Of a DNA stretch of 48,188 nt, positions 4,806-24,309 are shown in pieces. Position numbers and translations under genes: made by a program. The number at the start of each line of letters is the position of its first letter. Position 1 is the first letter of the stretch. The notes under the pieces are model-generated. The model did no database searches and was not told the origin of the DNA. It saw only the letters and a list, made by a program, of their open reading frames with translations. Where the stretch lies: assembly GCA_021296265.1 (NCBI GenBank), contig JAGWAT010000007.1:1-48188 (forward strand), read 5' to 3'. Source of the DNA: Alphaproteobacteria bacterium (GTDB lineage Bacteria > Pseudomonadota > Alphaproteobacteria > TMED109).

Positions 4806-5786
4806 ATGCCCGACAGCCCGTTCGTCCGCCGCCGGATCGCCTTCGTCCTGATCGAGGGGTTCGCCCTGATGTCGTTCGCGGCCGTTACCGAACCCCTTCG
4901 CGCCGCCAACCTGCTGGCCGGCCGCCGGATCTACGAACTGTTCTATTTCGCCGGTGGAGCGAAAGTCCCGGAGAGGCTGAACAGCTCGTCCGCTGCCTCG
5001 ATCGCCGTCAGCAGCCTCGGGGAGGCCACCGGTGCGTTTGATATGGCGTTTGTCGTGGCCGGCGGCGACCCGGTCGGCTATCGCGAGACACAGGTGCTCC
5101 AATGGCTGCGGCAACAGGCACGGCACGGGTGCACGCTGGGTGGGGTGTCGGGCGGGCCCGCGGTACTTGCAAACGCCGGCGTGATGGCCAACCGGCGGAT
5201 GACGCTGCACTGGGAGCACCATGCCGCCCTCGCCGAGCGGCATCCCGGCCTCCTGCTCGAACGTACCTTGTACGTCGTGGACCGGGACCGCATGACGTGC
5301 GCCGGCGGGACGGCGCCGCTGGACATGATGCACGCCCTGATCGCCGAGCATCACGGCGCGGACTTTGCCCGGAAGGTCAGCGACTGGTTCATGCATACCG
5401 AAGTGCGGCCCGCCGGGGGTCCGCAGCGGGCCGGCCTCGCGCAACGTTACGGCACCAACCGGCACGCGGTGCTGGCCGCGATCGAAGCCATGGAAAACCA
5501 TATCGCCGACCCGCTACCGCTCGCCGACCTCGCCCGGGTGGTCGGCGTGGGCGTCCGTCAGCTCAACCGACAGTTCCGGGCCGGACTAGGCCGGAGCACC
5601 GGCGCCTTCTACCGGGATCTGCGCCTGGACAAGTCCCGCGAACTACTGCATCAGACAGGTCTGCCGATCCTCGACATCGCGATTGCTACCGGCTTCTCCG
5701 GCGCTGCTCACTTTGCGACCGCCTACCGGAAGCGGTACGGCGATGCGCCGTCACGCCATCGCCTGGAATCGCTGCACAGACATTGA
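4806..5786 (+). CDS. GlxA-family (DJ-1/PfpI plus AraC HTH) transcriptional regulator
   Basis: The 326-aa product has an N-terminal class-I glutamine-amidotransferase-like sensor domain (about 8-190) and a C-terminal AraC double helix-turn-helix (about 225-320; LADLARVVGVGVRQLNRQFR and DIAIATGFSGAAHFATAYRKRYG). The nucleophile elbow reads GGVSGGPAV, with Ser where active DJ-1 enzymes have Cys, so it should be a ligand sensor. GbdR, CdhR and SouR, which sense glycine betaine, carnitine and sarcosine in Pseudomonas, share this architecture. Divergence from soxB suggests it activates the soxBDAG-type genes in response to an N-methylated amine; the ligand is inferred. Confidence 0.88.
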   Translation: MPDSPFVRRRIAFVLIEGFALMSFAAVTEPLRAANLLAGRRIYELFYFAGGAKVPERLNSSSAASIAVSSLGEATGAFDMAFVVAGGDPVGYRETQVLQWLRQQARHGCTLGGVSGGPAVLANAGVMANRRMTLHWEHHAALAERHPGLLLERTLYVVDRDRMTCAGGTAPLDMMHALIAEHHGADFARKVSDWFMHTEVRPAGGPQRAGLAQRYGTNRHAVLAAIEAMENHIADPLPLADLARVVGVGVRQLNRQFRAGLGRSTGAFYRDLRLDKSRELLHQTGLPILDIAIATGFSGAAHFATAYRKRYGDAPSRHRLESLHRH

Positions 5787-5807
5787 TCGCCCAAGGTTGG
5801 AACCGTT

Positions 5808-5834
5808 CCAATTCTGACCAATTCTGACCAATTC
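5808..5834 (+). promoter_or_regulatory. Phased 10-bp direct repeat array (CCAATTCTGA x2 plus CCAATTC) upstream of amt
   Basis: Three CCAATT units start at 5808, 5818 and 5828, exactly one helical turn apart; the first two full units are identical (ccaattctga). The array lies between the GlxA-regulator stop and amt, about 165 bp before the amt start. The 10-mer CTGACCAATT recurs inverted upstream of the ABC importer (22855-22874), and related ACCAAT repeats lie beside the ligase, gntR and tmm. This looks like an operator for a cooperatively binding regulator. Confidence 0.6.
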
Positions 5835-5998
5835 ACGGCCCAAATCGTTGAAGTATCCGCGGGAAGGCGTCATGCTGCGCTGGAACGGATAGATAGTTGC
5901 CGGCCGGCGGTAAGTTGGTTGGAACCGGTTCTTGCGGTACGACCGATTCTGCTCGGCGCGATGAGACAGCCGTTCGAGTAACCGGGGGAGCCACGACC

Positions 5999-7351
5999 GT
6001 GGAAGGCAATCTCAATGCCCTGACAACGGTGTTCACCGAGTTCTATTACTGGGCGACCATTCCGTTGATGTTTTTCATCCATATCGGCTTTTGCATGTAC
6101 GAGGTCGGTGCTAGTAGACGTCGTAACCACTTGCATACGCTAATGAAGAACACGATGCTGATCCCACTGGTGACGATCACGTTCTTCTTTTTCGGCTGGT
6201 GGCTCTACTGGGCCATGCCGAACGGACCGTTCATCACAGGAGGCCTCGACACCGCATCCGCGGAAGCCAACACGGCCTGGTCCGAGACCATGGGTCCGAA
6301 TACCGGCGACCGCATCACCGGCGTCTTCTGGGCAGCCTTCCTGCTGTTCTCCTGGACGGCAGCTTCCATTGTCTCCGGCTCGGTCATCGAACGCATCAAG
6401 TCCGGTGCGTTCTGGATCCTTGCGGTAGTAATCGGATCGGTCGCCTGGATTATTGACGCGGCCTGGGGCTGGCACTCCGGGGGCTGGATGGTCCAGTTGC
6501 TCGGCTATCACGACGCCTACGCCTCGGGCGTGATCCACGCGATTGCCGGCGGGTTCGCTCTGGGCGTCCTCGTCGTGCTAGGGCCGCGGCTCGGCAAGTT
6601 CGCCCGAGACGGCAGCCCGCGGGATATCACCCCGCATAATCCCTGGCTGGTGTGCCTCGGCCTGTTCATGATCTATGCAGGTTTCTGGGGCTTCTACGTG
6701 GCCTGCAACGTCCCGATCATCGACCCCGGCGGCATCGGCGGTCAGATCACCGGCGATACCTGGACGGCGACAACGATTTACCTGACTCCGACGACACTCG
6801 GTGCGATCACGGTGAATTTCCTGATGTCGCTTTCTGGCGGATTGCTGGTCGGCTACCTCGCCTCCAAGGGAAATCCTTTCTGGACCTACTCAGGCGGCCT
6901 TGCCGGCATCATCACGGCGTCGGCGGGCAACGACCTGTACCATCCGATCCACGCGATGATCATTGGCGGCATCGGTACTTACTGCGCCTACAAGCTGCAC
7001 TACTGGGTGGAGCAGAAGTTCAAGATCGACGATGCGGTCGGCGCCGTAGCGGTTCACGGCTACGCGGGCTTTATCGGTCTGGTGATCTGCGGCTTTGTGC
7101 TGTGGGGTCACCCGAGTTCGCCATACGAAGGCTTTGCGGCCATCAATCCGCTTGGTCAGTTCGCCGGCGCGATCATCATGTTCTTCGTGCTCGGTTTCGT
7201 GCCGGGGTGGATCGTGGCCAAGATCCTGGCGGCCATGAACTTGCTGCGTATTCCAAGGCAGGTGGAGTTGCTGGGGCTGGACTTCGCGTCGAACCGCGAA
7301 GAACAGGCGGCGGCGGCCGACGTCCGTGCAACCGAGAAGGCGGCCGTCTGA
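5999..7351 (+). CDS. amt: Ammonium/methylammonium transporter (Amt family)
   Basis: The 450-aa multi-helix membrane protein matches Amt/AmtB channels. The pore twin histidines are visible in YASGVIHAIAGG and AVAVHGYAGFIG, and the Asp eight residues before the first His matches the recruitment Asp of AmtB. GTG 5999 is chosen over 5897 because GGGGGAG lies 8 nt before it and the first 34 residues of the longer frame are not Amt-like. Amt proteins carry ammonium and methylammonium; next to gmaS-like, mgs and sox/mgd genes this one probably imports monomethylamine or recaptures leaked ammonium. A hairpin separates it from the small membrane protein at 7434. Confidence 0.9.
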   Translation: MEGNLNALTTVFTEFYYWATIPLMFFIHIGFCMYEVGASRRRNHLHTLMKNTMLIPLVTITFFFFGWWLYWAMPNGPFITGGLDTASAEANTAWSETMGPNTGDRITGVFWAAFLLFSWTAASIVSGSVIERIKSGAFWILAVVIGSVAWIIDAAWGWHSGGWMVQLLGYHDAYASGVIHAIAGGFALGVLVVLGPRLGKFARDGSPRDITPHNPWLVCLGLFMIYAGFWGFYVACNVPIIDPGGIGGQITGDTWTATTIYLTPTTLGAITVNFLMSLSGGLLVGYLASKGNPFWTYSGGLAGIITASAGNDLYHPIHAMIIGGIGTYCAYKLHYWVEQKFKIDDAVGAVAVHGYAGFIGLVICGFVLWGHPSSPYEGFAAINPLGQFAGAIIMFFVLGFVPGWIVAKILAAMNLLRIPRQVELLGLDFASNREEQAAAADVRATEKAAV

Positions 7352-7726: not shown

Positions 7727-9070
7727 TCAACTCCAGGGGAACGGACTGCTGCTTAGCGGGTGCAAGTTGCCCTCGGCGTAGCGACTGAAGCGGAAGGGTT
7801 CGAGCAGGGCCTGCTGTTCGCCCATGATCTCGTCCGCGACCAAGTGCCCCACGCCAATCATCTTGAAGCCGTGATTGCTGTCCGCAACCACGTAGACATT
7901 CTCGCAGAAGGTGTCGAACACCGGGAAACTGTCCGGCGTGAAACAGCCTAGGCCGCCGGACGGCTCTCTCTTGAACTTGCCGATCTGGCCGGAGAAGCGT
8001 TCCTGACAAAAGGCCAGGGCCGAGCACCACATGTGGGCGAAATCGGGGCCGACGACGAATTCCGGCGATTCCGGGCCGTAGGGATCGATCGCCACGTTGT
8101 CGGCCGGGGTCTTGACTTCATACGGCATGCCGCCGCCCTGGACGCCGCCGAAATGGAAATCCGGCTTGTAGTAAATGCCCCAGGGTTCCTCGGTGATGAC
8201 CGAACCATCGACATCCGAGCGCAGCGGCGCATCCGTGTCGACGTGAATCACCGGCGGCATGCCACCGTCATTGAGCTTCTGCAGGCCCGGGTCGACGCCG
8301 ATGACTCCCTCCTCCAGGCACCAGTAGCGCCACGTCGGGATGCCGTGGTGCATCGTCCCGTCGGGACCCCTGATCGACACCTCGCGTGGCAGATCGAGCA
8401 GGTCCCAGATAGTCTTGACCCACGGCCCGACGGCGACGACGACCTGATCGCACCGGATCGTCCCCCGGTCAGTCACGATCGCCGTCACAGCGCCAGATTG
8501 GTGGCCGCGCTCGAAACCGGTCACCGTCACCCCGGTGAGGACTCGGACGCCGCGAGCCTCGGCCCTGTCGGCCAGCCCGTAGATGGCGGCAGTGTTGTTG
8601 GCGTAGCCGCCTTTCCGTTCGTGCAGGATTGAGGTGATGCCCTCAGCCCGCCAGTCGTGCAGCAGGCCACGCATGTAAGCCTGGCAGTCCTTCGCGCCCT
8701 CGATGAACTCGGAGGGGTAGCCGATCTCCTTCTGCTGCTCGTAGATGCTGGTGACATCCTCGCGCATGGCCTCGTGGCTGACCTGCATGTAGCCGACCGG
8801 GTGATAGCTGAAGGCCTTCGGATCGGACTCCCAGACGGCGACGCTGTGCGCCATTAGCTCCCGCATTGCGGGCTGGAAATAATTGTTGCGCACCACACCG
8901 CAGGCGATGCCGCTGGCGCCGGCGGCGATGGCGGTTTTGTCGAGCACCAGGATGTCCGCACCATCGCCCTGGCCGGCCGCCTCCAGGCGCTCGGCCAGGC
9001 GCCATGCAGTGGAGAGGCCGTGGACTCCCGCCCCTATGACGGCATAGCGAACCTCTGTGGGAAAACTCAT
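7727..9070 (-). CDS. Stand-alone FAD-dependent amine oxidoreductase (SoxB-like DAO superfamily)
   Basis: The 447-aa flavoprotein has the N-terminal FAD motif YAVIGAGVHGLSTAWRLAE and a C-terminal VYVVADSNHGFKMIGVGHLVADEI block typical of sarcosine/dimethylglycine-oxidising DAO proteins. Unlike the tetrameric beta subunit at 3469, the covalent-flavin histidine is not conserved: the region reads GGYANNTAAIYG. ATG 9070 gives the family N-terminus; the frame to 9331 adds non-homologous sequence. No delta, alpha or gamma genes adjoin it, so it should pass electrons elsewhere. It is divergent from the second GlxA regulator. The substrate (dimethylglycine, sarcosine, dimethylamine or an N-methyl amino acid) cannot be read from sequence. 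Confidence 0.85.
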   Translation of the reverse strand: MSFPTEVRYAVIGAGVHGLSTAWRLAERLEAAGQGDGADILVLDKTAIAAGASGIACGVVRNNYFQPAMRELMAHSVAVWESDPKAFSYHPVGYMQVSHEAMREDVTSIYEQQKEIGYPSEFIEGAKDCQAYMRGLLHDWRAEGITSILHERKGGYANNTAAIYGLADRAEARGVRVLTGVTVTGFERGHQSGAVTAIVTDRGTIRCDQVVVAVGPWVKTIWDLLDLPREVSIRGPDGTMHHGIPTWRYWCLEEGVIGVDPGLQKLNDGGMPPVIHVDTDAPLRSDVDGSVITEEPWGIYYKPDFHFGGVQGGGMPYEVKTPADNVAIDPYGPESPEFVVGPDFAHMWCSALAFCQERFSGQIGKFKREPSGGLGCFTPDSFPVFDTFCENVYVVADSNHGFKMIGVGHLVADEIMGEQQALLEPFRFSRYAEGNLHPLSSSPFPWS

Positions 9071-9133
9071 GGGGAGGCCTCGTCGGACGAGATTGCAGAA
9101 GCGGAGTTCGGCCCATTCTGCGCACTTTGAATT

Positions 9134-9164
9134 GGCAGAAAAACAAACTATCCGACAGAAAAAG
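9134..9164 (+). promoter_or_regulatory. 20-bp-spaced direct repeat in the divergent FAD dehydrogenase / GlxA promoter
   Basis: GGCAGAAAAAC (9134-9144) and GACAGAAAAAG (9154-9164) match at 9 of 11 positions and are exactly two helical turns apart, as expected for an AraC-family dimer site. They lie in the 140-bp gap between divergent starts at 9070 and 9211, so the GlxA regulator next door is the natural binder. Confidence 0.5.
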
Positions 9165-9210
9165 TCATTATCCTGACGTTTACACGACTTTTCCCTGCAG
9201 ACCGTCGGCG

Positions 9211-11341: not shown

Positions 11342-12736
11342 CTAGATGTGGTGGTAGTCGTCGACGCCAACCGTGAAGTCAGTGCCGGCAAGCGGCACCT
11401 GCGCAATTGCAGAAGCCTCCATTGTCAGCGCGGCCAGATCTTCTGGCTCCAGGCTGTGGATGTCCGTCTTGCCGCAGGCGCGGGCCATCATCTGGGCTTC
11501 CAGGGTCAGCGTGTGCAGGAAGTTGTAAACGCGCTCGGCTGCCTCGTCCGGGTTGAGGCGCTTGCGTAACTCGGAATCCTGCGTCGCGACACCGACGGGG
11601 CAGCGGCCCGTGTGGCAGTGGTAGCACGCACCGGCAGGGACCCCCATCTCAGATGGAAAATCAGCTTCCGGAATGTCCTTGTTGCAGTTGAGCGCCATCA
11701 TCGCCGAGTGGCCGATCGCGATCGCGTCCGCGCCAAGGGCGATCGCCTTGGCCACATCGCCGCCGTTGCGGATGCCGCCGGCGTAGATCAGCGAAATCTC
11801 GCCCCGCTTACCCAAATCGTCGATGGCCCGGCGGGCTTGTCGGATTGCCGCCATGCCCGGAACGCCCGTGTCCTCGGTTGCCAGATGCGGACCGGCGCCG
11901 GTGCCGCCCTCCATGCCGTCGATATAGATCGAGTCGGGATCGCATTTCACCGCCATGCGGACATCGTCATAGACGCGCGCGGCGCCAAGCTTGAGCTGAA
12001 TCGGGATTCGCCAGTCAGTCGCTTCCCGGATCTCGAGGATCTTCAGCGCCAGATCGTCGGGCCCCAGCCAGTCGGGATGGCGGGCCGGGGAGCGCTGGTC
12101 GATACCAGCCGGCAACGAGCGCATCTCCGCGACCTGGTCGGTCACCTTTTGACCCATCAGATGACCGCCCAAGCCGACCTTGCATCCCTGGCCGATGAAG
12201 AACTCGCAGCCGTCCGCCAGCATGAGGTGGTGCGGATTGAAGCCATAGCGCGACTGGATGCATTGGTAGAACCACTTGGACGAGTAGCGCCGCTCGTCGG
12301 GGATCATGCCGCCTTCGCCGGAGCAGGTCGCGGTGCCGGCCATCGTGGCGCCGCGGGCAAGCGCGGTCTTGGCCTCGAAGGACAGTGCCCCGAAGCTCAT
12401 GCCCGTGATGTAGATCGGGATGTCGAGTTCCAGCGGGCGCTTGGCGCGCGGCCCGATCACCGTCCTGGTCTCGCATTTCTCGCGATAGCCCTCGATGACG
12501 AAGCGCGTCAGCGTGCCGGGCAGGAAGGTCAGGTCGTCCCAATGCGGGATTTTCTTGAACAGCGAAAATCCGCGCATGCGGTAGCGGCCAAGTTCGGATT
12601 TCACATGGATGTCATTGATGACTTCCGGCGTGAAAATCTGGCTCCTGCCCAGGACGTATTTTTCCTCGACTTCCAGCTTGGCGTGGGCGGCGCCACCCGG
12701 GTTCGGATCGTCCGGCATGTCGGTCTCTTTCTTCAT
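11342..12736 (-). CDS. mgsC: N-methylglutamate synthase FMN subunit (GltB-like, MgsC/GlxD)
   Basis: The 464-aa product is the FMN/iron-sulfur synthase domain of glutamate synthase as a separate protein. It shows the TIM-barrel FMN motifs IYIDGMEGGTGAGPH and YAGGIRNGGDVAKAIALGADA, and the cluster-binding CYHCHTGRCPVGV near residue 385. With MgsA and MgsB it forms N-methylglutamate from gamma-glutamylmethylamide and 2-oxoglutarate, or a related glutamate-synthase-like reaction in GlxBCD. ATG 12736 is used; ATG 12718 with an AAGAAAGAG site is a fair alternative. It follows mgsB by 29 nt and is cytoplasmic. Confidence 0.88.
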   Translation of the reverse strand: MKKETDMPDDPNPGGAAHAKLEVEEKYVLGRSQIFTPEVINDIHVKSELGRYRMRGFSLFKKIPHWDDLTFLPGTLTRFVIEGYREKCETRTVIGPRAKRPLELDIPIYITGMSFGALSFEAKTALARGATMAGTATCSGEGGMIPDERRYSSKWFYQCIQSRYGFNPHHLMLADGCEFFIGQGCKVGLGGHLMGQKVTDQVAEMRSLPAGIDQRSPARHPDWLGPDDLALKILEIREATDWRIPIQLKLGAARVYDDVRMAVKCDPDSIYIDGMEGGTGAGPHLATEDTGVPGMAAIRQARRAIDDLGKRGEISLIYAGGIRNGGDVAKAIALGADAIAIGHSAMMALNCNKDIPEADFPSEMGVPAGACYHCHTGRCPVGVATQDSELRKRLNPDEAAERVYNFLHTLTLEAQMMARACGKTDIHSLEPEDLAALTMEASAIAQVPLAGTDFTVGVDDYHHI

Positions 12737-12765
12737 ACCTCGCCGCAAGAGAAGGGAAGCGTGCC

Positions 12766-13608
12766 CTACAGGACCAGCTTCTTCTCCGTGGGTTCGAGAT
12801 TGTCGTAGCTCCAGAGCTGCTTGCCGGCGACGATCTTGGTGAAGTGATCCACGCCCTGCGCCGGCAGCAGTTCGTACATGTTCAACTTGCGGGTCAGCCA
12901 GCCGCGGTCGAGATCGGTCAGCTCCGCCTGGATGGCGTCCACGCCTAGGTCCCGTATGTCGCCGCCGACGTAGATCGTGCCGTCATACATCGAGTCGCCG
13001 AGATTCTTGCCCGCATTGCCACAGACCACGATGCGCCCACGCTGCATCATGAACCCCGAAAACGCGCCGGTATCGCCGCCGACGATGATGCTGCCGCCCT
13101 TCTGGTCGATTCCGGTCCGCGAGCCGACCGAGCCCCTGCACACCAAGTCGCCGCCGCGTAGCGCCGCGCCGAACGTGGAGCCCGCGTTCTCCTCGACGAC
13201 ACAGACGCCGGCCATCATGTTTTCGCCGAACGACCAGCCGACACGTCCGGAAACCCGGACGGTCGGGCCGTCCAGCAGCCCGCAGCCGAAATAGCCCAGA
13301 CTTCCCTCAACGACGATGTTCATCCGGTTCAGGATGCCCACGATCAACGAGTGCTTGGCACCCGGATTCCGGATCACGATGCTGCCGTGACCGGAGTCCA
13401 TCAGTTCCCGGATCCGCCGGTTGATCTCCGTCGGTTCCAGTTCGGCGCAATCGATCTCCGCGCGCCGGTTGAAGTCGACGTCCCGGGCGAAGTGGTAGGC
13501 AAAGCCGCCCTCGTTTTCGAGCGTGAACTTGGTCTTGATGTCCCGCCCGGTCAGAGATTCGGTGTGCATGCCCATCTGGGTGGAGGTGGACTCGCTCATG
13601 CCTGCCAT
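12766..13608 (-). CDS. mgsB: N-methylglutamate synthase GXGXG-domain subunit (MgsB/GlxC)
   Basis: The 280-aa product matches the C-terminal right-handed beta-helix (GXGXG) domain of GltB, with repeated turns such as GRVGWSFGENMMAG, GGDTGAFSGFMMQRG and GNAGKNLGDSMYDGTIYVGGD. In glutamate synthase this domain is structural, linking amidotransferase and FMN domains; here it is a separate subunit. GGAGG at 13620-13616 lies 7 nt before ATG 13608, so that start is kept; ATG 13599 would give an ATGA overlap with the upstream stop. It is translationally coupled to mgsA. Confidence 0.88.
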   Translation of the reverse strand: MAGMSESTSTQMGMHTESLTGRDIKTKFTLENEGGFAYHFARDVDFNRRAEIDCAELEPTEINRRIRELMDSGHGSIVIRNPGAKHSLIVGILNRMNIVVEGSLGYFGCGLLDGPTVRVSGRVGWSFGENMMAGVCVVEENAGSTFGAALRGGDLVCRGSVGSRTGIDQKGGSIIVGGDTGAFSGFMMQRGRIVVCGNAGKNLGDSMYDGTIYVGGDIRDLGVDAIQAELTDLDRGWLTRKLNMYELLPAQGVDHFTKIVAGKQLWSYDNLEPTEKKLVL

Positions 13609-14531
13609 ACCCGAACCTCCTCGTCGTAGGGATCGGACGTGTCGATCTCGTGGGGGAGGACGGCCCGGATGGCCACTTCCTCGGACGCCAGTGCGACCAT
13701 GTCGTCCGCCTCGTAGAGCACCATCGGTTTCGCGGCCATCGTGTCCTTGGCCATGCCCAGTTCATTCCTGGTCGTGATCAGGTAGGTGAACACGCCATCG
13801 ATCTCGTCGATGGACCGGCGGAGCGATTCCTCCAACGTCATGCCCTTCTCGAGATTCACCGCCGTGTAGACCGCCAGCAGCTCGGAATCGCAGTGACTGA
13901 CGAAGCGCTGTCCTTCCCGCTCGAGCTGCCGACGCATCAGCCAGTAGTTCGTGATCTGGCCGTTATGGACGACGGCGATGTCGTTGTAGGGATAAGCCCA
14001 GTAGGGGTGGGCCGAGCGGATGTCCACATCGGATTCGGTGGCCATCCGCGTATGGCCGATGCCGTGGGTGCCCTCGAACGTACTGAGACCGTAGGTCTCG
14101 GACACCGCCGCCGCGTCGCCGAGATCCTTGACCAGTTCCAGAGCATTGCCGATCGAGAGGATTTCTCCGCCCTCGACCTCCTCGACCTGGTCGGCAAGGC
14201 GCTTCAGGTCGCCGTCGAACGCGATCCGGGAACGAAGGGCGTACTCCGTCGGCTCGTCGAGCTCGAGAACATTGACGCCGAGCTCCTCCAGCACCGCACC
14301 GACCGCTGCCTTGCGCTCCTTGATCGCCCGATGGATCCGGGTTCCGCCGTCCAGATCCTCCTTCTCCGCAACCTTGTAGCGCATGACGTACTCGCTTGGC
14401 CCGGGTGCGCCGTACATGGCGAAACCGGTGGAATCCGGGCCACGGTGCCGGAGCGCCTGCAACATGGCAGTCATCTCTTCGCCGATCTTGCGAGCGCCGT
14501 CGCGATATATCAGTCCGGCAATGCCACACAT
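13596..14531 (-). CDS. mgsA: N-methylglutamate synthase glutaminase-type subunit (MgsA/GlxB)
   Basis: The 311-aa class-II glutamine amidotransferase begins MCGIAGLIY, so Cys2 is the N-terminal nucleophile. LQALRHRGPDSTGFAMYG, GIGHTRMATESD and AVVHNGQITNYWLMRRQL carry the usual glutamine-site residues. In MgsABC this subunit should cleave gamma-glutamylmethylamide (or glutamine) and channel methylamine (or ammonia) to the FMN subunit. An AAAGGAGTGA ribosome site precedes the ATG. It lies 65 nt after the gmaS-like ligase and overlaps mgsB by 13 nt. Confidence 0.9.
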   Translation of the reverse strand: MCGIAGLIYRDGARKIGEEMTAMLQALRHRGPDSTGFAMYGAPGPSEYVMRYKVAEKEDLDGGTRIHRAIKERKAAVGAVLEELGVNVLELDEPTEYALRSRIAFDGDLKRLADQVEEVEGGEILSIGNALELVKDLGDAAAVSETYGLSTFEGTHGIGHTRMATESDVDIRSAHPYWAYPYNDIAVVHNGQITNYWLMRRQLEREGQRFVSHCDSELLAVYTAVNLEKGMTLEESLRRSIDEIDGVFTYLITTRNELGMAKDTMAAKPMVLYEADDMVALASEEVAIRAVLPHEIDTSDPYDEEVRVWQA

Positions 14532-14596: not shown

Positions 14597-16066
14597 CTAC
14601 GGCAGGCAGTCCAGATAGGTGTCGATGTCCCATTCGGTGGTCGTGTGCAGGAACCGCTCCCACTCGTCCCGCTTGTACTCGTCGTACAGGCGGTACATTT
14701 CGCCGGGCAGCGCGGACTTGATGACGTCGTCGCCGGCCAGCGCATCGAGGGCGGCGCCGAGCGTCATGGGCAGACGCCTGACCTGCTTGCCCGCTTCCAT
14801 CGCCTCATAGATGTTGCGGTTTTCCGGCGGACCGGGATCGATGTCGTTCCGGATGCCGTCATCGGCAGCCTTGAGAATGGCTCCGGCCATCAGGTGCGGG
14901 TTCACCATCGAATCCACCGACCGGTATTCGAAACGGCCCGGCGCCGACACGCGCAAGCCGGTAGTGCGGTTCTGGTAGCCCCAGTCGGCGAATACCGGTG
15001 CCCAGAATCCGGTATCCCAGAGCCGGCGGTAGGAGTTCACCGTCGAGGCGCCGATGGCGGTCAGTGCGGCCAGATGCTTGACGATACCGCCGACCACCTG
15101 CAGGCCGACCTTGCCCGGGAGCTGTGGATCGTCGGTATCCGGCATGAACGTGTTTTCGCCGCCCTTGCGGTACATGAAGTTCTCCTCCATGCCCGGCAGC
15201 GGATCGTTCTTCAACGGGTTCAACTGGTCCTGACCGCCGCGCCACAGGGAAATGTTGTGGTGGCAGCCGGAGGCCGACACCCCCATGAACGGCTTCGAGA
15301 GAAAGCAGGCAATGAGGTTGAACTCGCGAGCGACCTGTGCACAGATCTGGCGATAGGTGGTCAGTCGATCGGCTGTCCGCAGCGCATCGTCGAAGGTGAA
15401 GTTCAGCTCAAGCTGGCCCGGCGCGTCCTCGTGATCCCCCTGGATCATGTCAAGGCCCATGGCCCGGGAATACTCGATGACCCGCAGGTACACGGGGCGC
15501 AGGCTTTCGAATTGGTCGATGTGGTAGCAGTACGGGTTGGAGTAGCCGCCGTCGGGCTTGCCATCCTCGCCCTTCTTCAGCCACATCATCTCCGGTTCGG
15601 TGCCGTGGCGCAGATGCAGCCCGTCATGATCCGCCTGGAACTGCGTGTGGATGCGGCGCAGGTTGCCGCGGCAATCGGCGGTCAGGAAGGAGCCCGGGTT
15701 CTCGCGTTCCTCGCGATTGCGGAACAGCGTGCACCACACGCGACCGACCCGCTTGTCCCAGGGCAGCTGGCAGAAGGTCTCCGGCTCGGGGATGCCGACG
15801 AGTTCCTTCTCGTGCGGCCCGTACCCGAGATACTCGCCGTGTCGGTTCAGGAACAGGTTGACCGTGGCGCCATAGACGAGCTGGAAACCGCGCTCGGCGA
15901 TCGCCTCCCAGTGATCCGCCGGGATGCCCTTGCCGCAAATCCGACCGGTGACCGACACGAACTGGAGATAGAGGTACTCGATCCCCAACTCATCGATCTT
16001 GCTCCGCACCTGTCTGACCAGCTCATCCCGGCCTTCCTGCTGCACAAAGACTTCGATATCCGTCAT
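14597..16066 (-). CDS. gmaS: Glutamine-synthetase-family ligase, probable gamma-glutamylmethylamide synthetase
   Basis: The 489-aa product has the glutamine synthetase fold signatures: GTEPEMMWLK (155-164), GDHEDAPGQLELNF (210-223), SGCHHNISLW (266-275), STVNSYRRLW (341-350) and APGRFEYRSVDSMVNPHLMAG (375-395). Heading the mgsABC operon and close to amt and sox/mgd genes, it most likely joins glutamate and methylamine with ATP to make gamma-glutamylmethylamide. It is some 50 residues longer than the roughly 435-440 aa I expect for GmaS/GlnT, so it may be a distinct type III-like branch; ammonia as substrate is the alternative. It is divergent from gntR across a 296-bp gap with ACCAAT repeats. 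Confidence 0.78.
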   Translation of the reverse strand: MTDIEVFVQQEGRDELVRQVRSKIDELGIEYLYLQFVSVTGRICGKGIPADHWEAIAERGFQLVYGATVNLFLNRHGEYLGYGPHEKELVGIPEPETFCQLPWDKRVGRVWCTLFRNREERENPGSFLTADCRGNLRRIHTQFQADHDGLHLRHGTEPEMMWLKKGEDGKPDGGYSNPYCYHIDQFESLRPVYLRVIEYSRAMGLDMIQGDHEDAPGQLELNFTFDDALRTADRLTTYRQICAQVAREFNLIACFLSKPFMGVSASGCHHNISLWRGGQDQLNPLKNDPLPGMEENFMYRKGGENTFMPDTDDPQLPGKVGLQVVGGIVKHLAALTAIGASTVNSYRRLWDTGFWAPVFADWGYQNRTTGLRVSAPGRFEYRSVDSMVNPHLMAGAILKAADDGIRNDIDPGPPENRNIYEAMEAGKQVRRLPMTLGAALDALAGDDVIKSALPGEMYRLYDEYKRDEWERFLHTTTEWDIDTYLDCLP

Positions 16067-16128: not shown

Positions 16129-16144
16129 ACCAATACGAACCATT
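16129..16144 (+). promoter_or_regulatory. ACCAAT/ACCATT 10-bp repeat upstream of the gmaS-like gene
   Basis: ACCAAT at 16129 and ACCATT at 16139 are exactly 10 bp apart, 63-78 bp upstream of the ligase start. On the ligase strand they read ATTGGT. They match the repeat family at amt, gntR, tmm and the importer. Confidence 0.5.
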
Positions 16145-16282: not shown

Positions 16283-16319
16283 ACCATTTGCAAACCAATT
16301 TCGCCAATATCGACCAATT
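16283..16319 (+). promoter_or_regulatory. Four-copy ACCAAT array upstream of gntR
   Basis: ACCATT (16283), ACCAAT (16294), GCCAAT (16303) and ACCAAT (16313) are spaced 11, 9 and 10 bp and all on the same strand. The last unit, GACCAATT, equals the core at the amt and importer sites. The array ends 44 nt before the preferred gntR start, so autoregulation is likely. Confidence 0.6.
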
Positions 16320-16362
16320 GGCGCAAGAATGCACTTGGCGGGAATTTGGAGAGGATGCTGTC

Positions 16363-17103
16363 GTGGCTGACGGACGCACGCCCGGACAGGAATCGCGATT
16401 TGCCACCGGCCCGAGCCTAGCCGAGGACGGCCGCCACGTCGGGTATATCACGGCCCAGTTGCGTGAGGCCATCCGCAGCGGTTTCTACGTGAACGGCGAC
16501 CAGTTGCCCGCCGAGCGGGAACTTGCCGAGCGGTTCGACACCGCGCGGAGCACCATTCGCAAGGTCCTGCTCAGTCTCGAGACCGACGGGCTGATCGAGC
16601 GGCGCGTCGGCAGCGGCACATTCGTCAAGTGCGAGGACATGGCGATCAGCGCCGCACTCGACATCGTCAGCCAGGTCAGCCCGCTGGAGCTGATCGAGGC
16701 ACGCATGGCCGTCGAGCCGTACATGACGCGTCTTGCGGTGCTCAATGCGACCGCCAACGAAATCAAGATGCTCGGATCGATTCTCCATGACCTCGAGCAG
16801 TGCCGGAACGACAAGGAGGCGTTTTCCCGGCACGACAGCATGTTCCACGAATGGCTCGCCCGCAGCTCCAAGAACCCCCTGATGCTGCACCTGTACCAGC
16901 AGATCAACGCAGTCCGCGGCCATGACCAGTGGGACGCCATGAAAAACAAGATCCTGGTGCCCGACGAGATCGACGAATACAACCGCCAGCACCGGGAGCT
17001 GTTCGAGGCGATCAAGCGACGGGACCTCGTCTCCGCGGTCAAGCACATCAATGACCATCTGGAAAAGGCGCGCCGGGACCTGATGGGCGCCGCGGCGCTC
17101 TAG
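16363..17103 (+). CDS. GntR-family (FCD/FadR-type) transcriptional regulator
   Basis: The 246-aa product has an N-terminal winged HTH (AQLREAIRSGFYVNGDQLPA, then AERFDTARSTIRKVLLSLE) and a helical FCD effector domain (about 95-235). GTG 16363 is chosen because GGAGAGGA lies 8 nt upstream, and because ATG 16276 would place the ACCAAT array inside the gene. It is divergent from the gmaS-mgsABC operon, and FCD regulators usually sense small metabolites as repressors. It is the best candidate to bind the GACCAATT repeats across both amine blocks, though FCD operators are usually inverted TGGT-N-ACCA rather than direct repeats. Confidence 0.87.
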   Translation: MADGRTPGQESRFATGPSLAEDGRHVGYITAQLREAIRSGFYVNGDQLPAERELAERFDTARSTIRKVLLSLETDGLIERRVGSGTFVKCEDMAISAALDIVSQVSPLELIEARMAVEPYMTRLAVLNATANEIKMLGSILHDLEQCRNDKEAFSRHDSMFHEWLARSSKNPLMLHLYQQINAVRGHDQWDAMKNKILVPDEIDEYNRQHRELFEAIKRRDLVSAVKHINDHLEKARRDLMGAAAL

Positions 17104-17983: not shown

Positions 17984-20356
17984 CTAAGCCCGAACCCGGG
18001 ACTTCGTCGGATCGTAGAAGGGGAATGGCACCACCCGGGCCGGAATGCGCTTCTGGTGGCCGTCCAGCTTGCCGACCTCGACGGCGGTTCCCTCGCCCGC
18101 AGCGGTCACGTCCATCCGGCACAGTGCGATGTTCTTCCGCAGGACGGGTGAGCGCATGCCGCTGGTAATGGTGCCGACCTGGGATCGCCCGACGTGGACG
18201 CAGTCGCCGTGGGCGGCCGGCTCCTGCCCGTCCAGCTCCAGGCCGACCAGCTTGCGCTGCGGCAATTCCTTGCGCCGGACCAGGGCTTCCCGGCCGACGA
18301 AATCGTCCTCCTTCGTCTTCAGCGGCACCGTGAAACCGATGCCGGCCTCGAAGGGATCGGTCTGGTCGTCGAACTCGTGGTTGGCGAAGATCAGGCCGGC
18401 CTCGATCCGCACCATGTCAAGCGCCTCCAGACCGAAAGGCGAGAGACCGTGCGGTTCTCCGGCGGTCCAGATGGCATCCCACACACCGGTGGCGTCGCGC
18501 GGGTGGCACCAGACCTCGAAGCCCAACTCACCCGTGTAGCCGGTGCGGGAGACAATGATCGGGATTCCTGCGTGATCGCCGACCCGGGCGATCGTGAACC
18601 GGAACCAGCCGAGCTCGGAAATGGCCGGCTGGGCGGGCGGCGTCCACAACACCTCCTTGAGGATGTCCCTGCTCCGGGGGCCTTGGACCGCGACGTTGTG
18701 AAGCTGGTCGGTCGACGATCGCACCCAGACGTTGAGCCCGAGCGCAGCTGCCTGCTCGCGCATCCATTCGCCGCCGTAGTCGCAACCGCCGATCCAGCGG
18801 AAATTGTTATCTCCCAGCCGGAAGGCGGTGCCGTCATCGATCATGCCGCCGGTCTCGTAGCACATGGCGGTATAGACCACCTGGCCGGTGGCCAGCCGGC
18901 GCATGTTCCGGGTCAGCACCCACTGCATCAGGCGCTCGGCGTCCGGTCCCAGAACCTCGAACTTGCGGAGTGCCGAGAGGTCCATGATCGCCGCCCGCTC
19001 GCGACAGGCCCAGTATTCGTCCAGCGCGCCACGGTTGGTGAAACTGTTGGCCAGCCAGTAGCCGTTGTATTCGGTGAAGTTCCGCGTGTGCGCGGCAAAT
19101 CGGCTGTGGAAACCGGTTTCCTTGGTCAGCTTGGGGTCGGCGTCGGGGGTCATGCGATAAGCCACCGCTTTCGAAAACACGTTCTCGCGCGGGTAGACCC
19201 GCACGTGAATGTCAGAGGGGTCCCAGCCATTGGCGGCGTCGATATCGTCCGGGCACGCGGACGACACGCAGACCAGATCGGTCAATGCCTGCAAGAGCAC
19301 GTAGTCGCCGGGCCGCGACCACGGATTGTCGTGGAACGCCTGGTTGGCGTCGTCGAACCCGGTGTTGAAGAAGAAATTCAGCGCCATCCAGCCGCGGCGC
19401 GGGGCGATCGCGAACGGCGCGAGTGCCGCGTTGAAGTTTTCCGTGCAGTTGACATGGCCGGGATAGCCCATGTCGTCGTAGTACTTCGCCGTGCAGGCAT
19501 AGAGGAAGCTGTCGTGCCGGCCGCAGGTGTCGCGGACCACCTCGACCATCGGCTGCAGGCCCTGATCGAAGCATTTCGACAGCAGGCCGGGCGCCGGATA
19601 GGCGCTGCCCATCAGCGTGCGGGTGGCCGTCGCGTCCAGGCAGAGTTCCCTCCCCTGGTCGAGACTGGCGACGGTGAAGGCCTGGAAATCCGAACACTGC
19701 CGCCCCTGCACGTCGATGATCTGGATGAATTCGCCGGCCTTGACCTCATAGGCTTCGGCCGTCCGGGCGCCGATACGCCGGTCAAGGCGCGGATCGGCCA
19801 GGGGCTCCGGCACCACGTGCTCGGCGGACGCCGCCGGGTTGGCGCGGGTGACGAAGACCTCGATGGGGGTCGGCGGATCCTGCCGGTCGACCCGCATCGC
19901 GGATCCCGGCGCTGCGATGATGCACACCAGCGGCCGCTCGGCAGTGAACGTCTGCTCGTCACCGGGCCGGGAGTCGCCCCCCAGGACGTTGATCGATCGC
20001 GCACCTGCGATATCGAGTCCGCGCCGTTGCAGGCAGCCGGCAAGCGAGCGGGCCGGTCCGTCATCGCCGATCAGAATGGCCTTGAGGCCATCCGCGGTCC
20101 CGTTCGGCGCGACCCCCAGCGCCTCTGTGTCGGCCGATCCGACCGGCGCAAATCCAGCAATCTCGGCCGCCTGCCGGCCCTCGCGGTCACGCACCGCGAC
20201 GGTATCGCCCGGCTCCAGCGAGAACACGGTCGCGCCGGCGCCTTCAGCGACGTAGCGCTCGACCCCGATGCCCAGCGAGGGCACCCCGGGGACCAGCACG
20301 CCGCCGGCTATCGACGGCTGTTGCCTAAGCCGCGGTCGCGGCGTCTCGATCCTCAT
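17984..20356 (-). CDS. tdm: Trimethylamine N-oxide demethylase (aldolase)
   Basis: The 790-aa fusion matches bacterial Tdm: an N-terminal DUF1989 metal-binding module (about 195-400) joined to a C-terminal GcvT-like tetrahydrofolate-binding domain (about 425-785). Cysteines likely to bind zinc stand in GRQCSDFQAF (221), LLSKCFDQG (262), RDTCGRHDS (278) and DLVCVSSACPDD (363, 368). Tdm converts TMAO to dimethylamine and formaldehyde, the carbon being captured by THF. Residues 35-70 (YVAEGAGATVFSLEPGD, GRQAAEIAGF) resemble a degenerate second DUF1989 start. Tmm lies two genes upstream, matching the known tmm-tdm pairing. It is cytoplasmic. Confidence 0.92.
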   Translation of the reverse strand: MRIETPRPRLRQQPSIAGGVLVPGVPSLGIGVERYVAEGAGATVFSLEPGDTVAVRDREGRQAAEIAGFAPVGSADTEALGVAPNGTADGLKAILIGDDGPARSLAGCLQRRGLDIAGARSINVLGGDSRPGDEQTFTAERPLVCIIAAPGSAMRVDRQDPPTPIEVFVTRANPAASAEHVVPEPLADPRLDRRIGARTAEAYEVKAGEFIQIIDVQGRQCSDFQAFTVASLDQGRELCLDATATRTLMGSAYPAPGLLSKCFDQGLQPMVEVVRDTCGRHDSFLYACTAKYYDDMGYPGHVNCTENFNAALAPFAIAPRRGWMALNFFFNTGFDDANQAFHDNPWSRPGDYVLLQALTDLVCVSSACPDDIDAANGWDPSDIHVRVYPRENVFSKAVAYRMTPDADPKLTKETGFHSRFAAHTRNFTEYNGYWLANSFTNRGALDEYWACRERAAIMDLSALRKFEVLGPDAERLMQWVLTRNMRRLATGQVVYTAMCYETGGMIDDGTAFRLGDNNFRWIGGCDYGGEWMREQAAALGLNVWVRSSTDQLHNVAVQGPRSRDILKEVLWTPPAQPAISELGWFRFTIARVGDHAGIPIIVSRTGYTGELGFEVWCHPRDATGVWDAIWTAGEPHGLSPFGLEALDMVRIEAGLIFANHEFDDQTDPFEAGIGFTVPLKTKEDDFVGREALVRRKELPQRKLVGLELDGQEPAAHGDCVHVGRSQVGTITSGMRSPVLRKNIALCRMDVTAAGEGTAVEVGKLDGHQKRIPARVVPFPFYDPTKSRVRA

Positions 20357-20471
20357 TGCGAACCTTGCGCCTCCTTCCGTTCCCTAGCCTATGAACTGCT
20401 CTGTCCGACGGCAATCTGCCCCGGCAGCCCGGAGCGGCAGCGATCGTGGAACTGGCCACATCGCGACCCCG

Positions 20472-21206: not shown

Positions 21207-21226
21207 GGCGCGGCCCCGGGGCCGCG

Positions 21227-22570
21227 TTATTCGTTCCCGAGATAGCTCTCCATCGAATCATCCATGGCATCGACCCAGGGGGTGTGGTGGGTCGGCGCCA
21301 TGGTGCCGGTCATCACCGACTTGTACCCGTTGTCCCGGAACGTCATGATGTTCTGCTTCTTGTGCTTCTTCCACTGGAAGAAGGCCTCGTTCGCGCCGTC
21401 CACATCGAAGCTGGGATAGTCCGTCTCGGCAATCAGCTCCCGTACGTAGTCGCCCTGGTAGCGGATCGCGCCGTAGTCGTCTTCGAGGGCGTCCTCCCGG
21501 GCCTCCCGGTCAGCGACGTCGGCGGCCATTGCGGCCCGGTCCGGCACCTGGATGCGGGCCATAATGATGTCGCGGACGTACCAAGCCTGAGCGTCGAACA
21601 TGTTGAAGGTGTACCACTGGTCCTGCATGCCGAGATAGAACAGCTTCGGATTGTTGATCCACACCACGCCCTTGTAGAGGTCGGCCGCCGCGAGCCGGTT
21701 GGCGGTCTGCAGGCGAAGCTCCGGCGCCATGAAGGGGAAGTAGTGCAGATAGCCGGTGCACAGGATGATCGCATCGACGACCGCCGTTGAGCCGTCCTTG
21801 AAGGTGCAGGTGTTACCCACCACCTTCTGCAGCAGCGGCACCTCTTTCCAGTTATCGGGCCAGTCGTAGCCCATGGCCGCGGTGCGATGGCTGACGGTGA
21901 CCGATTTGCAGCCGTATTTCCAGCACTGAGACCCGATGTCCTCGGCCGAATAGCTGGTGCCGATGATCAGGATGTCCTTGTCCTTGAACTCGACGGCGTC
22001 ACGGAAGTCGTGGGCGTGCATCACGCGGCCGTTGAACCGGTCGAGACCGTCGAAGTGCGGCACGTTCGGGGTGGAAAAATGGCCGGTTGCGACCACGACG
22101 TGGTCGAACCGCTCGCTGGACTCGCTGTCGGTCGGCAGGTCGTGCGCGGTGACCGTGAACTGGCCCGTCGCGTCGTCGTAGTCGACCCGCCGGACTACCG
22201 ATCGGAAGCGGATCGAGTCGCGCACGGCCGCCTTCTTCACCCGGCCCTCGATGTAATCGAAGAGCACCTCGCGCGGTGGATAGGAGGCGATCTGCCGGCC
22301 GAAATGCTCCTCAAACGAATAGTCGGCAAACTCGAGTCCTTCCTTGGGGCCATTCGACCACAAGTACCGGTACATCGAGCAATGGACCGGCTCGCCGTAT
22401 TCGTCGAGCCCAGTGCGCCACGTGTAGTTCCACAAACCGCCCCAGTCCGCCTGCTTCTCGTAACAGACGACCTCAGGCACGTCCGCCCCGCCGGCCTTCG
22501 CCGACTGGAACGCCCGCAACTGGGCGAGGCCGGACGACCCCGCGCCGATCACCGCAACTCGTTTGCCCAT
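21227..22570 (-). CDS. tmm: Trimethylamine monooxygenase (flavin-containing monooxygenase)
   Basis: The 447-aa product has the Tmm/FMO fingerprints: FAD motif [17 protein letters not shown] (5-21), the FxGxxxHxxxF motif [11 protein letters not shown] (179-189), and the NADPH-binding [10 protein letters not shown] (204-213). Blocks [20 protein letters not shown] and [19 protein letters not shown] are characteristic of bacterial Tmm rather than other FMOs. It oxidises trimethylamine to TMAO with NADPH and O2 in the cytoplasm. ATG 22570 fits AGGAAG just upstream; the GTG at 22582 is less likely. It leads the operon tmm, TPR protein, tdm, amidase, and is divergent from an ABC importer. Confidence 0.94.
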
Positions 22571-22651: not shown

Positions 22652-22677
22652 ACCAATCTACACCAATCTACACCACT
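22652..22677 (+). promoter_or_regulatory. ACCAATCTAC direct repeat array upstream of tmm
   Basis: ACCAATCTAC occurs twice in tandem (22652, 22662), followed by ACCACT (22672), all 10 bp apart, 82-107 bp upstream of the tmm start. On the tmm strand the units read ATTGGT, as at the importer and ligase promoters. Confidence 0.55.
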
Positions 22678-22854
22678 ATGGGTGCCCATACGCCCATGCG
22701 GCGGTGATTTCTGGCTGGCATCGGGTTCGGCAGGGCCGGACCCAATTGCGTCGAACGGCGACAATAGTGCCTATTTCGCTTGCATCCAGCCCCCAAACTG
22801 TCATGCTGTGGGGGATTGACCGCAATCGTGCACATTCGGGCGACCCGTCGTGCA

Positions 22855-22874
22855 AATTGGTCAGAATTGGTCAT
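22855..22874 (-). promoter_or_regulatory. GACCAATT direct repeat upstream of the ABC importer
   Basis: AATTGGTCAG and AATTGGTCAT stand in tandem, 10 bp apart, 125-144 bp upstream of the binding-protein start. Their complement contains CTGACCAATT, identical to the amt-upstream unit. Together with the tmm array this gives two facing arrays in one 428-bp divergent intergenic region. Confidence 0.58.
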
Positions 22875-22998: not shown

Positions 22999-24309
22999 AT
23001 GTCGCGCAAGTCACTTCACCGCAAAATCAGTAGGCGGAAATTCCTCGGCACCTCCGCGGCAGCGGGGGCGGCGCTGGCGGCAACGGGCACCGGCCTGCCG
23101 CGCGTCTCCTTCGCTGACAGCCACACCATCAAGATCGGTTTCCTGGCCCCCCTCACCGGCCCGGTGGCGGCCTGGGGCAAGCCCGGCCTGGACGGCTGCC
23201 TCATCTGGGCGGACTGGGTCAACGCCAAGGGCGGGGTCAGCATCGGCGGCCAGTCGTACAACATCGAATTCGTCGGCTACGACAACGAGTACGATGCCGC
23301 GAAGGCGCGCACAGGCGCCACCAAGCTGATCAAGGAAGACGGCGTCAAGTTCATCATGATGCTGGGCGGCGACACTTGGCCCGGCGTGCAGACGATCGCC
23401 GAGCGCGAAGGCATGCTCTTCTCGACCCTGCTGCCGAGCGACCTGTCGCCGGACAGTACCACGCTGCTCGCGCCCTGCGAGGTGCACCCGATCTACAACG
23501 TGACTGGCGTCGAATGGCTGGCGGAGAACAAGCCGGAGCTGAAGACCGCCGCCATGTGCGCACAGGACGACTCGCTCGGCAAGCCCTCGGTGGCCACCTA
23601 CTTGGCGGCCTTCGAAGCGGCCGGGATAGAGATGGTCGACGCGCCCCTGTTCTTCGACCCCGCGACGACGGACTTCGCGCCAGTCATGACCAAGCTCATG
23701 GCCGGGAACCCGGACATCCTCTGCCTGGACACCTGCTACGCCGACTACGTCCACCCGTTGTGCGAGCAGGCATTCCAGCAGGGCTACCAGGGGCAGATCA
23801 TCTCCTGCACGGCCGACTTCTATCAGAAGATCATCGAGAAGACATCGGAAGAGTTCATGGAAGGGTTCATCTTCCAGTTCCCGGACTTCGACGACCCGGC
23901 GCTGAACAGCGAGGATGTCAACTTCGTCAATCCGAACGAGTTCTACGTTGAGTACGCCAACCGGTACGGCGCCTCGGAATGGAGCGCCGTTTCCTGGGAG
24001 TACGCCTCGATCATGGATCTCTGGGCAGACGCCGCCGCCAACGCCGGCAGCGCCGAACCGGCGGCCGTCCTGGAGGCGATGAAGGCCGACGGTACCGGCA
24101 AGCACGCCTTCGGCACAGCCGACTGGTGGGGCACGGAGCTGTTCGGAATCGACAACGCCCTGGTCGGCAACTGGCCGGTCGTGGTGATTGAGGGCGGCAA
24201 GGCCCGGATCAAGGGCTTCAAGTCCATCCCCGCCTGGTGGAACCAGCACAAGGACCTGATGATCAAGCACATGACGGACCTGGGCCAGATGTGGAACCAG
24301 CGCGGATAG
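22999..24309 (+). CDS. ABC transporter substrate-binding protein (branched-chain amino acid/amide type, Tat-exported)
   Basis: The 436-aa periplasmic binding protein of the Peripla_BP_6 group carries a twin-arginine signal SRRKFLGTSAAAGAALAATG (11-30) followed by ADSHTIKIGFLAPLTGPVAAWG. ATG 22999 has GGGAGG 5 nt upstream. Liv-, Urt- and Fmd-type systems of this class import amino acids, urea and amides. Divergence from tmm and the shared GACCAATT repeats suggest the ligand is a methylated amine or a related nitrogen compound; known TMAO importers (TmoXWV) are of a different, betaine-type family. A T-tailed hairpin follows, normal for overproducing the binding protein relative to the permeases. 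Confidence 0.88.
   Translation: MSRKSLHRKISRRKFLGTSAAAGAALAATGTGLPRVSFADSHTIKIGFLAPLTGPVAAWGKPGLDGCLIWADWVNAKGGVSIGGQSYNIEFVGYDNEYDAAKARTGATKLIKEDGVKFIMMLGGDTWPGVQTIAEREGMLFSTLLPSDLSPDSTTLLAPCEVHPIYNVTGVEWLAENKPELKTAAMCAQDDSLGKPSVATYLAAFEAAGIEMVDAPLFFDPATTDFAPVMTKLMAGNPDILCLDTCYADYVHPLCEQAFQQGYQGQIISCTADFYQKIIEKTSEEFMEGFIFQFPDFDDPALNSEDVNFVNPNEFYVEYANRYGASEWSAVSWEYASIMDLWADAAANAGSAEPAAVLEAMKADGTGKHAFGTADWWGTELFGIDNALVGNWPVVVIEGGKARIKGFKSIPAWWNQHKDLMIKHMTDLGQMWNQRG

Follow-up and report, generated by a model that had tools for sequence, protein, structure and literature searches.

Methylated amines make up an important share of marine dissolved organic nitrogen. The regulation of their breakdown has been elucidated in Ruegeria pomeroyi, where TmaR (SPO1584), an AraC-type protein, acts as master activator of the methylamine operons and of its own gene, and where TmoR (SPO1553), a GntR repressor encoded near tmm, regulates tmm alone within the pathway (PMC13390433). 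Induction through TmaR requires a methylamine catabolite rather than any methylamine of the pathway, and that paper gives no binding motif or operator sequence, the terms 'motif' and 'binding site' having zero occurrences in it (PMC13390433). Among GntR/FCD proteins, E. coli NanR binds (GGTATA)3 as three cooperative dimers; two or more close repeats are needed for tight binding, cooperativity depends on an N-terminal extension of 32 residues, and Arg128 binds the effector carboxylate (PMC8012715). In Streptomyces, several copies of BldC occupy direct repeats about one turn apart, with a variable number of units (PMC5859096). No operator published for the breakdown of trimethylamine or N-methylglutamate was encountered in a search of the open-licence literature, which makes a candidate pairing of operator and regulator for these pathways useful.

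The window analysed here, the whole stretch of 48,188 nucleotides of an alphaproteobacterial contig, carries a methylamine gene cluster. Two of its genes were identified by models above their cut-offs, namely tmm, encoding trimethylamine monooxygenase (21227..22570, minus strand; NF058570, 828 bits, cut-off 675), and tdm, encoding TMAO demethylase (17984..20356, minus strand; NF053776, 1231 bits, cut-off 1100). The glutamine-synthetase-family ligase at 14597..16066 (minus strand; PF00120) is called gmaS-like by family, domains and synteny, its TIGR03105 score of 298 bits lying under the cut-off of 470, and the adjoining mgsABC-like three-gene N-methylglutamate synthase set (11342..14531, minus strand; GATase, GXGXG and Glu_synthase domains) was likewise named by domain and synteny. 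The cluster further includes amt, of the ammonium/methylammonium transporter family and a proposed regulon member (5999..7351, plus strand; PF00909), the substrate-binding protein of an importer, first gene of an ABC operon (22999..24309, plus strand; PF13458), a GntR/FCD regulator (16363..17103, plus strand), and two AraC/DJ-1 (GlxA-type) proteins, GlxA1 and GlxA2 (4806-5786 and 9127-10173). A single-chain FAD oxidoreductase (DAO; 7727-9331, minus strand) is also encoded; 35 of 60 distant loci (described below) have such an oxidoreductase and gntR within the fetched stretch, the former usually adjoining gmaS, and it may substitute for the multi-subunit N-methylglutamate dehydrogenase mgdABCD. 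The frame at 20389-21270 (minus strand), between tdm and tmm, had no Pfam or NCBIfam match, and among five same-genus loci it was matched in one (L036), there in pieces.

Analysis of the intergenic regions revealed arrays of short head-to-tail units before five transcription units of this cluster. Upstream of amt, the putative operator array O1 (5806..5833, plus strand) contains three CCAATT units starting at 5808, 5818 and 5828, exactly 10 bp apart as the original prediction on this DNA had claimed, the first of them being degenerate (TCCAAT). A degenerate second array, O2 (5913..5929, minus strand), inferred to be an operator as well, consists of ACCGGT and ACCAAC 10 bp apart and sits 3' of the putative amt promoter. 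The inverted copy that had been predicted before the branched-chain-type importer was found at 22855..22872 on the minus strand (GACCAATTCTGACCAATT), and is likewise a putative operator. Repeats of ACCAAT at 10-bp intervals had also been claimed before the ligase, gntR and tmm. This spacing applies to the putative gmaS-mgs array (16129..16144, plus strand; ACCAAT at 16129, ACCATT at 16139) and to the putative tmm array (22652..22677, plus strand; ACCAAT at 22652 and 22662, ACCACT at 22672), but not to the putative gntR array (16283..16319, plus strand), whose four units at 16283, 16294, 16303 and 16313 are spaced by 11, 9 and 10 bp. Similarly, the claim that all copies are intergenic holds for the tandem pairs, which in the window are restricted to promoters, and fails for single RACCAATY 8-mers, one of the ten in the window (at 15510) lying within gmaS.

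The arrays were conserved among relatives of the same genus. The GntR protein was present in six of the seven genomes searched, with 92-97% identity in the five relatives, while the seventh (G002) had no match to GntR, to gmaS or to ACCAATN3-5ACCAAT. Arrays before gmaS and gntR were carried by all five fetched same-genus loci (L036-L040); those of tmm and the importer were present in all four loci that extend to them, and the amt array in all three that reach amt, with two or three units, some degenerate. In alignments of the amt, gmaS-gntR and tmm-importer regions (eight or nine sequences, window included), the units stood out as conserved blocks amid diverged intergenic DNA. The gmaS array was kept in 9/9 aligned sequences, as was the gntR array, with single-base degenerate units in some, and amt O2 read AATTGGT in four and AGTTGGT in four of the eight sequences. 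The exact search for ACCAATN3-5ACCAAT gave matches in 6/7 genomes within the genus, with 0 control matches; among 192 relatives it matched 109 genomes, many of them A+T-rich or unrelated with several matches each, and is therefore uninformative outside the genus.

To reach more distant relatives, 14 GntR orthologs were aligned and the alignment was run against 84,980 species genomes. The best 80 of the 138 relatives found were kept, comprising 20 near (70-96% identity) and 60 distant ones (44-57%). The near relatives are mostly metagenome-assembled alphaproteobacteria, with L060 named from Spongia, and the distant set consists mainly of alpha- and gammaproteobacteria, together with, by title, one betaproteobacterium and one acidobacterium. 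Each of the 4096 hexamers was counted as tandem pairs at 9-11 bp in the 450 bp preceding gntR of the 60 distant loci, and ACCAAT came out on top. On the gntR-sense strand such pairs occurred in 23/60 loci, against a mean of 0.95 for the 60 hexamers of the same composition (ACCAAT included) and 5 for the next best. With both strands considered, 37/60 loci had an array, whereas 50 draws of random stretches averaged 0.62 of 60 and never exceeded 3, and the best permuted hexamer reached 9; these counts come from related sequences, some loci belonging to the same or close organisms (L126 and L127; several near loci repeat same-genus contigs), and overstate independence. Together with the same-genus alignments, this bears out the expectation that the arrays are conserved in related clusters. 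The strict array was absent upstream of gntR in the remaining 23 of the 60 distant loci.

A position weight matrix built from the near relatives alone reached a score of 12 in 46/60 distant loci, 14 in 37 and 16 in 31, compared with 2.3, 1.5 and 1.2% of random stretches, respectively, and 0.4% of shuffled stretches at 12. Fourteen of the 60 loci stayed under 12, and in L095, L106 and L128 (scores of 5 or less) nothing convincing was seen upstream of gntR. In L106, a perfect 11-bp pair does occur elsewhere, in the region separating two divergently transcribed oxidoreductase genes, one of which heads a dao-gmaS-mgs run, and the SUP05-clade locus L108 has a degenerate pair only. Pair spacings in the distant loci were 9 bp (9 pairs), 10 bp (13) and 11 bp (30), with lesser peaks at 20-22 bp (11) and 32-35 bp (11). 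The units thus recur at about one helical turn, 9-11 bp; distant loci most often use 11 bp, and 10 bp prevails in the window. In L071 (9126-9923) a gntR paralog of 70% identity stands alone, the other window proteins having no match in the fetched stretch of that locus, and a perfect array of two units lies 45-60 bp ahead of it.

Arrays were observed before further transporter genes as well. In L057 (16372-17017) a perfect array precedes a glycine-betaine-type (OpuAC) substrate-binding protein, possibly TMAO-binding and TmoX-like, and arrays similar in sequence to it were seen in L059, L064, L065 and L067. In L205 (13668-15547) and L076 (10709-12669), arrays precede an AA_permease_2 transporter close to methylamine genes. 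Judged by these upstream sequences, the OpuAC-type protein (L057) and the amino-acid permease (L076, L205) would extend the regulon in relatives.

The protein encoded at 16363-17103 combines an N-terminal GntR winged helix-turn-helix (PF00392, 68.8 bits, cut-off 27) with a C-terminal FCD domain (PF07729, 88.7 bits, cut-off 24.3). It scored 97.1 bits with the NanR model NF003011, below the cut-off of 260, and E. coli NanR scored 86.6 bits against the ortholog profile. A predicted metal site (D158, H162, H210 and H232), invariant in 14 orthologs, aligns with the NanR Zn ligands Asp172, His176, His222 and His244; the invariant R52, R62 and R66 align with Arg59, Arg69 and Arg73, likely base contacts in NanR, and the invariant R114 aligns with NanR Arg128. 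The window protein has about 26 residues ahead of its first conserved helix; the figure is about 4 for L051 and about 50 for L048, the chosen starts being uncertain. On the other strand the ACCAAT unit reads ATTGGT and contains the FadR-type TGGT half-site, the consensus for FadR half-sites being TGGT/ACCA. The palindromic operator typical of the FadR subfamily was not what these loci contain: direct repeats dominate, and of the palindromes TTGGTN2-6ACCAA just the form TTGGTN4ACCAA was found upstream of gntR, in 3/60 distant loci (L126, L127 and L130), two of which (L126 and L127) share one Acidiferrobacteraceae assembly. Direct repeats do not exclude membership of that subfamily, since its operators are known to include exceptions such as NanR (PMC4494728). 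The original prediction had regarded direct repeats as unusual for GntR/FCD proteins; palindromes are indeed typical, and NanR on (GGTATA)3 provides a precedent to the contrary (PMC8012715).

We consider it probable, judging from these comparisons, that the arrays are operators of the GntR protein encoded at 16363-17103, bound by cooperative dimers that repress transcription and are released by a carboxylate. The regulator would control its own gene by autorepression, together with gmaS-mgs, amt, tmm and the importer. With successive units repeated in the same direction at intervals of about one helical turn (9-11 bp), two to four dimers could line up along the same face of the helix and bind cooperatively, like NanR on (GGTATA)3; they would be released once a carboxylate intermediate of the pathway occupies the FCD metal site. 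The TGGT half-site, the kept arginines and metal ligands, R114 and the NanR precedent together point to cooperative side-by-side dimers and a carboxylate effector. Carboxylates serve as effectors of FCD proteins beyond NanR. N-methylglutamate and gamma-glutamylmethylamide are our guesses for the effector here; by analogy, such an intermediate would agree with the catabolite requirement of TmaR, which is another protein.

The proposed sign of regulation, repression, is suggested by the family and by the position of the arrays relative to promoter-like blocks. Putative promoters were recognised as conserved blocks before amt (5848..5876, plus strand; TTGAAG, 17 bp, CATGCT; eight sequences, window included) and before the importer (22780..22807, plus strand; TTGCAT, 16 bp, CATGCT). 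Three intergenic regions, those of amt and the importer included, were scanned for sigma-70 promoters and gave no match, and the operator-to-promoter geometry accordingly rests on these blocks, read by eye. The amt block lies between O1 and O2. Measured from the second hexamer of the promoter-like blocks, the importer array and amt O2 start 37-48 bp further downstream, and several distant gntR arrays also follow promoter-like sequence, again by eye. These positions speak for repression and against a principally activating role of the same GntR protein on the same arrays, as does the presence of the repressors NanR and PdhR among the characterised relatives found by sequence. The array O1, in turn, precedes the first hexamer of the putative amt promoter by 15-42 bp, a position that is also suited to activation, and mixed control with a sign depending on position is therefore conceivable. 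All in all, we regard binding by this GntR with mainly activation, or with mixed sign, as rather unlikely.

The original prediction had named both the GntR product and the two GlxA proteins as candidates for the single regulator, and the comparisons favour the former. At a typical AraC site, two helix-turn-helix motifs enter successive major grooves. An AraC/GlxA-type protein (4806-5786 or 9127-10173) might in this way place the two motifs of its DNA-binding domain in grooves one turn apart and activate the regulon, like TmaR of R. pomeroyi. Both glxA genes lie within the cluster, amt O1 is upstream of the putative promoter, and the AraC-type master activator of R. pomeroyi binds all TMA promoters tested (PMC13390433). 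Arrays were moreover carried by 8/8 near loci with glxA, yet also by 10/12 without it. A glxA homolog was found in just 3/60 distant loci, and arrays upstream of gntR were present in 34 of the 57 distant loci without one in the fetched stretch, a count limited by the shortness of many loci and leaving room for a regulator encoded elsewhere in the genome. An array also stands before the lone gntR paralog of L071, and arrays of up to four near-identical units do not resemble two different boxes. With arrays persisting in loci that have no glxA, an AraC/GlxA protein was set aside as main binder, and we consider this explanation improbable.

Loci with tmm in genomes lacking this GntR agreed with that choice. 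Of 15 tmm stretches fetched, eight (L192, L196, L197, L198 and L201-L204) served as negatives, coming from genomes whose best GntR match was at most 33% identical or which had none at E 1e-12, and these contained no intergenic strict pair; L203 had one strict pair, inside tdm. The other seven (L193, L194, L195, L199, L200, L205 and L206) had at least one strict pair each. Four of them (L193, L194, L195 and L206) correspond to the GntR-bearing contigs L065, L069, L058 and L102, and L200 (genome G218) has a 37% GntR match (5e-39), just beyond the threshold, its two pairs not lying beside tmm. In L196, a GntR gene at 5011-5751, 31-33% identical, is located near tmm without ACCAAT arrays and is a candidate TmoR by synteny only. 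This GntR was present in 17 of 192 genomes (E <1e-40, a threshold placed at a visible gap from 5e-41 to 3e-31 after the table was seen), and all 17 have gmaS (E <1e-120), which occurred in 19 genomes, two of them without this GntR. The corresponding gmaS loci without GntR (L223 and L225) showed no strict pair in their short flanks, a weak control because several GntR-bearing loci also lack a pair in short gmaS flanks. With the matrix, hits of at least 14 were found in 4/10 negative loci (five hits), four of the hits being in coding sequence by position (L198 at 9097, in a frame; L203 at 11626 in tdm and 8133 in tmm; L225 at 2037 in gmaS) and the fifth, in L202 at 8668, directly before tmm at the likely ribosome-binding region. 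Across the loci compared, the arrays thus track the presence of the GntR/FCD regulator, not that of the enzymes or of the AraC/GlxA proteins, and they are most likely docking sites of the neighbouring GntR-type regulator (16363-17103). One amine regulon under one regulator on helix-phased units, as originally proposed, fits this comparative evidence.

Genome-wide counts showed that the repeats are concentrated in the window. The exact pattern CCAATN5CCAAT occurred six times in the 2.54-Mb genome, five of them in the window, and ACCAATN4ACCAAT with at most one mismatch occurred ten times, seven of them in the window (binomial p of about 1.5e-8 and 1e-10, respectively, overlapping pairs inside one array not being independent), so that the motif is not scattered at random across the genome. 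Raising the limit to two mismatches gave 54 matches in all (21 for the reversed-pattern control) and no additional match in the window, with 47 outside it (three with one mismatch and 44 with two). Four out-of-window sites of the same genome were inspected, and none of the stretches had a match to any window protein; all four sites fell inside mechanically called reading frames of 120 or more residues, one or more frames per site. Repeats of this kind, which do lie near promoters, might also be kept because they bind a nucleoid protein or a global one, form part of an RNA element or belong to the promoter itself, and one array overlaps a terminator-like hairpin (minus strand, 16302-16323; one found, 0.5 expected). 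A global factor should nevertheless have sites throughout the genome, where 1/6 exact and 3/10 near-exact pairs fall outside the window, and was rejected on these counts and on the hexamer ranking; an RNA element does not suit array copies that occur in both orientations relative to genes. We judge such explanations very improbable. Pairs were counted in annotated coding sequences and in gaps, giving 0 versus 86 in the near and 1 versus 55 in the distant loci, although coding sequence is in total about ten times longer. Chance in A+T-richer intergenic DNA is practically negligible as an explanation: control hexamers of the same composition were also commoner in gaps (4.3 and 2.5 pairs per hexamer) than in coding sequence (0.5 and 0.7), but far below the 86 and 55 observed in gaps, and chance is ruled out by this comparison together with the genome-wide counts, the first rank among 4096 hexamers, the random stretches and the conservation across diverged intergenic regions.

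Returning to the arrays as GntR operators, a more tentative thought is that a widespread GntR/FCD clade of alpha- and gammaproteobacteria has turned the palindromic site of one dimer into an open-ended, helix-phased array, in which the number and phase of units would set how tightly each methylamine operon is shut. In addition, a repression loop might form between convergent pairs of arrays, those flanking the amt promoter and those between tmm and the importer; we hold this reading as possible but somewhat doubtful. The arrays offer a testable operator for a marine nitrogen pathway, and the motif gives a sequence-level handle for predicting co-regulated genes in lineages represented chiefly by metagenome-assembled genomes. 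They also provide an example, apparently a widespread one in nature, of a GntR/FCD protein on direct repeats, whose many variants in spacing and copy number offer material on how such proteins assemble.

Compared with the described systems, the present regulator shares with TmoR the GntR family and a trimethylamine cluster; it differs in that its gene adjoins gmaS and that arrays stand at five promoters, its own included. With TmaR it would share the control of methylamine operons and of its own gene by one regulator, although it is a GntR/FCD protein with no AraC-type DNA-binding domain. This suggests that the same enzymes have been wired to different regulators by lineage, TmaR and TmoR in R. 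pomeroyi and this GntR here. The palindromic operators of the FadR subfamily have the TGGT/ACCA half-site in common with these arrays and differ from their tandem direct repeats (PMC4494728). BldC is likewise placed along repeats and belongs to another fold family, being MerR-like, with head-to-tail subunits on 9-bp AATTXXXX(C) sites (PMC5859096). The closest likeness is to NanR, also a GntR/FCD protein on direct repeats of a GGT-containing unit (two to four units here), and its recognition arginines and Zn ligands are conserved in the present regulator. The repeats of NanR are more closely spaced than those of the present arrays. The unit itself is ATTGGT instead of GGTATA, the N-terminal extension varies in length among the present orthologs, and the regulon, and presumably the effector, are others. 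The use of direct repeats by a GntR/FCD protein is thus already known from NanR, and what is new, as read from the sequences compared, is the pairing of this putative operator with this regulator.
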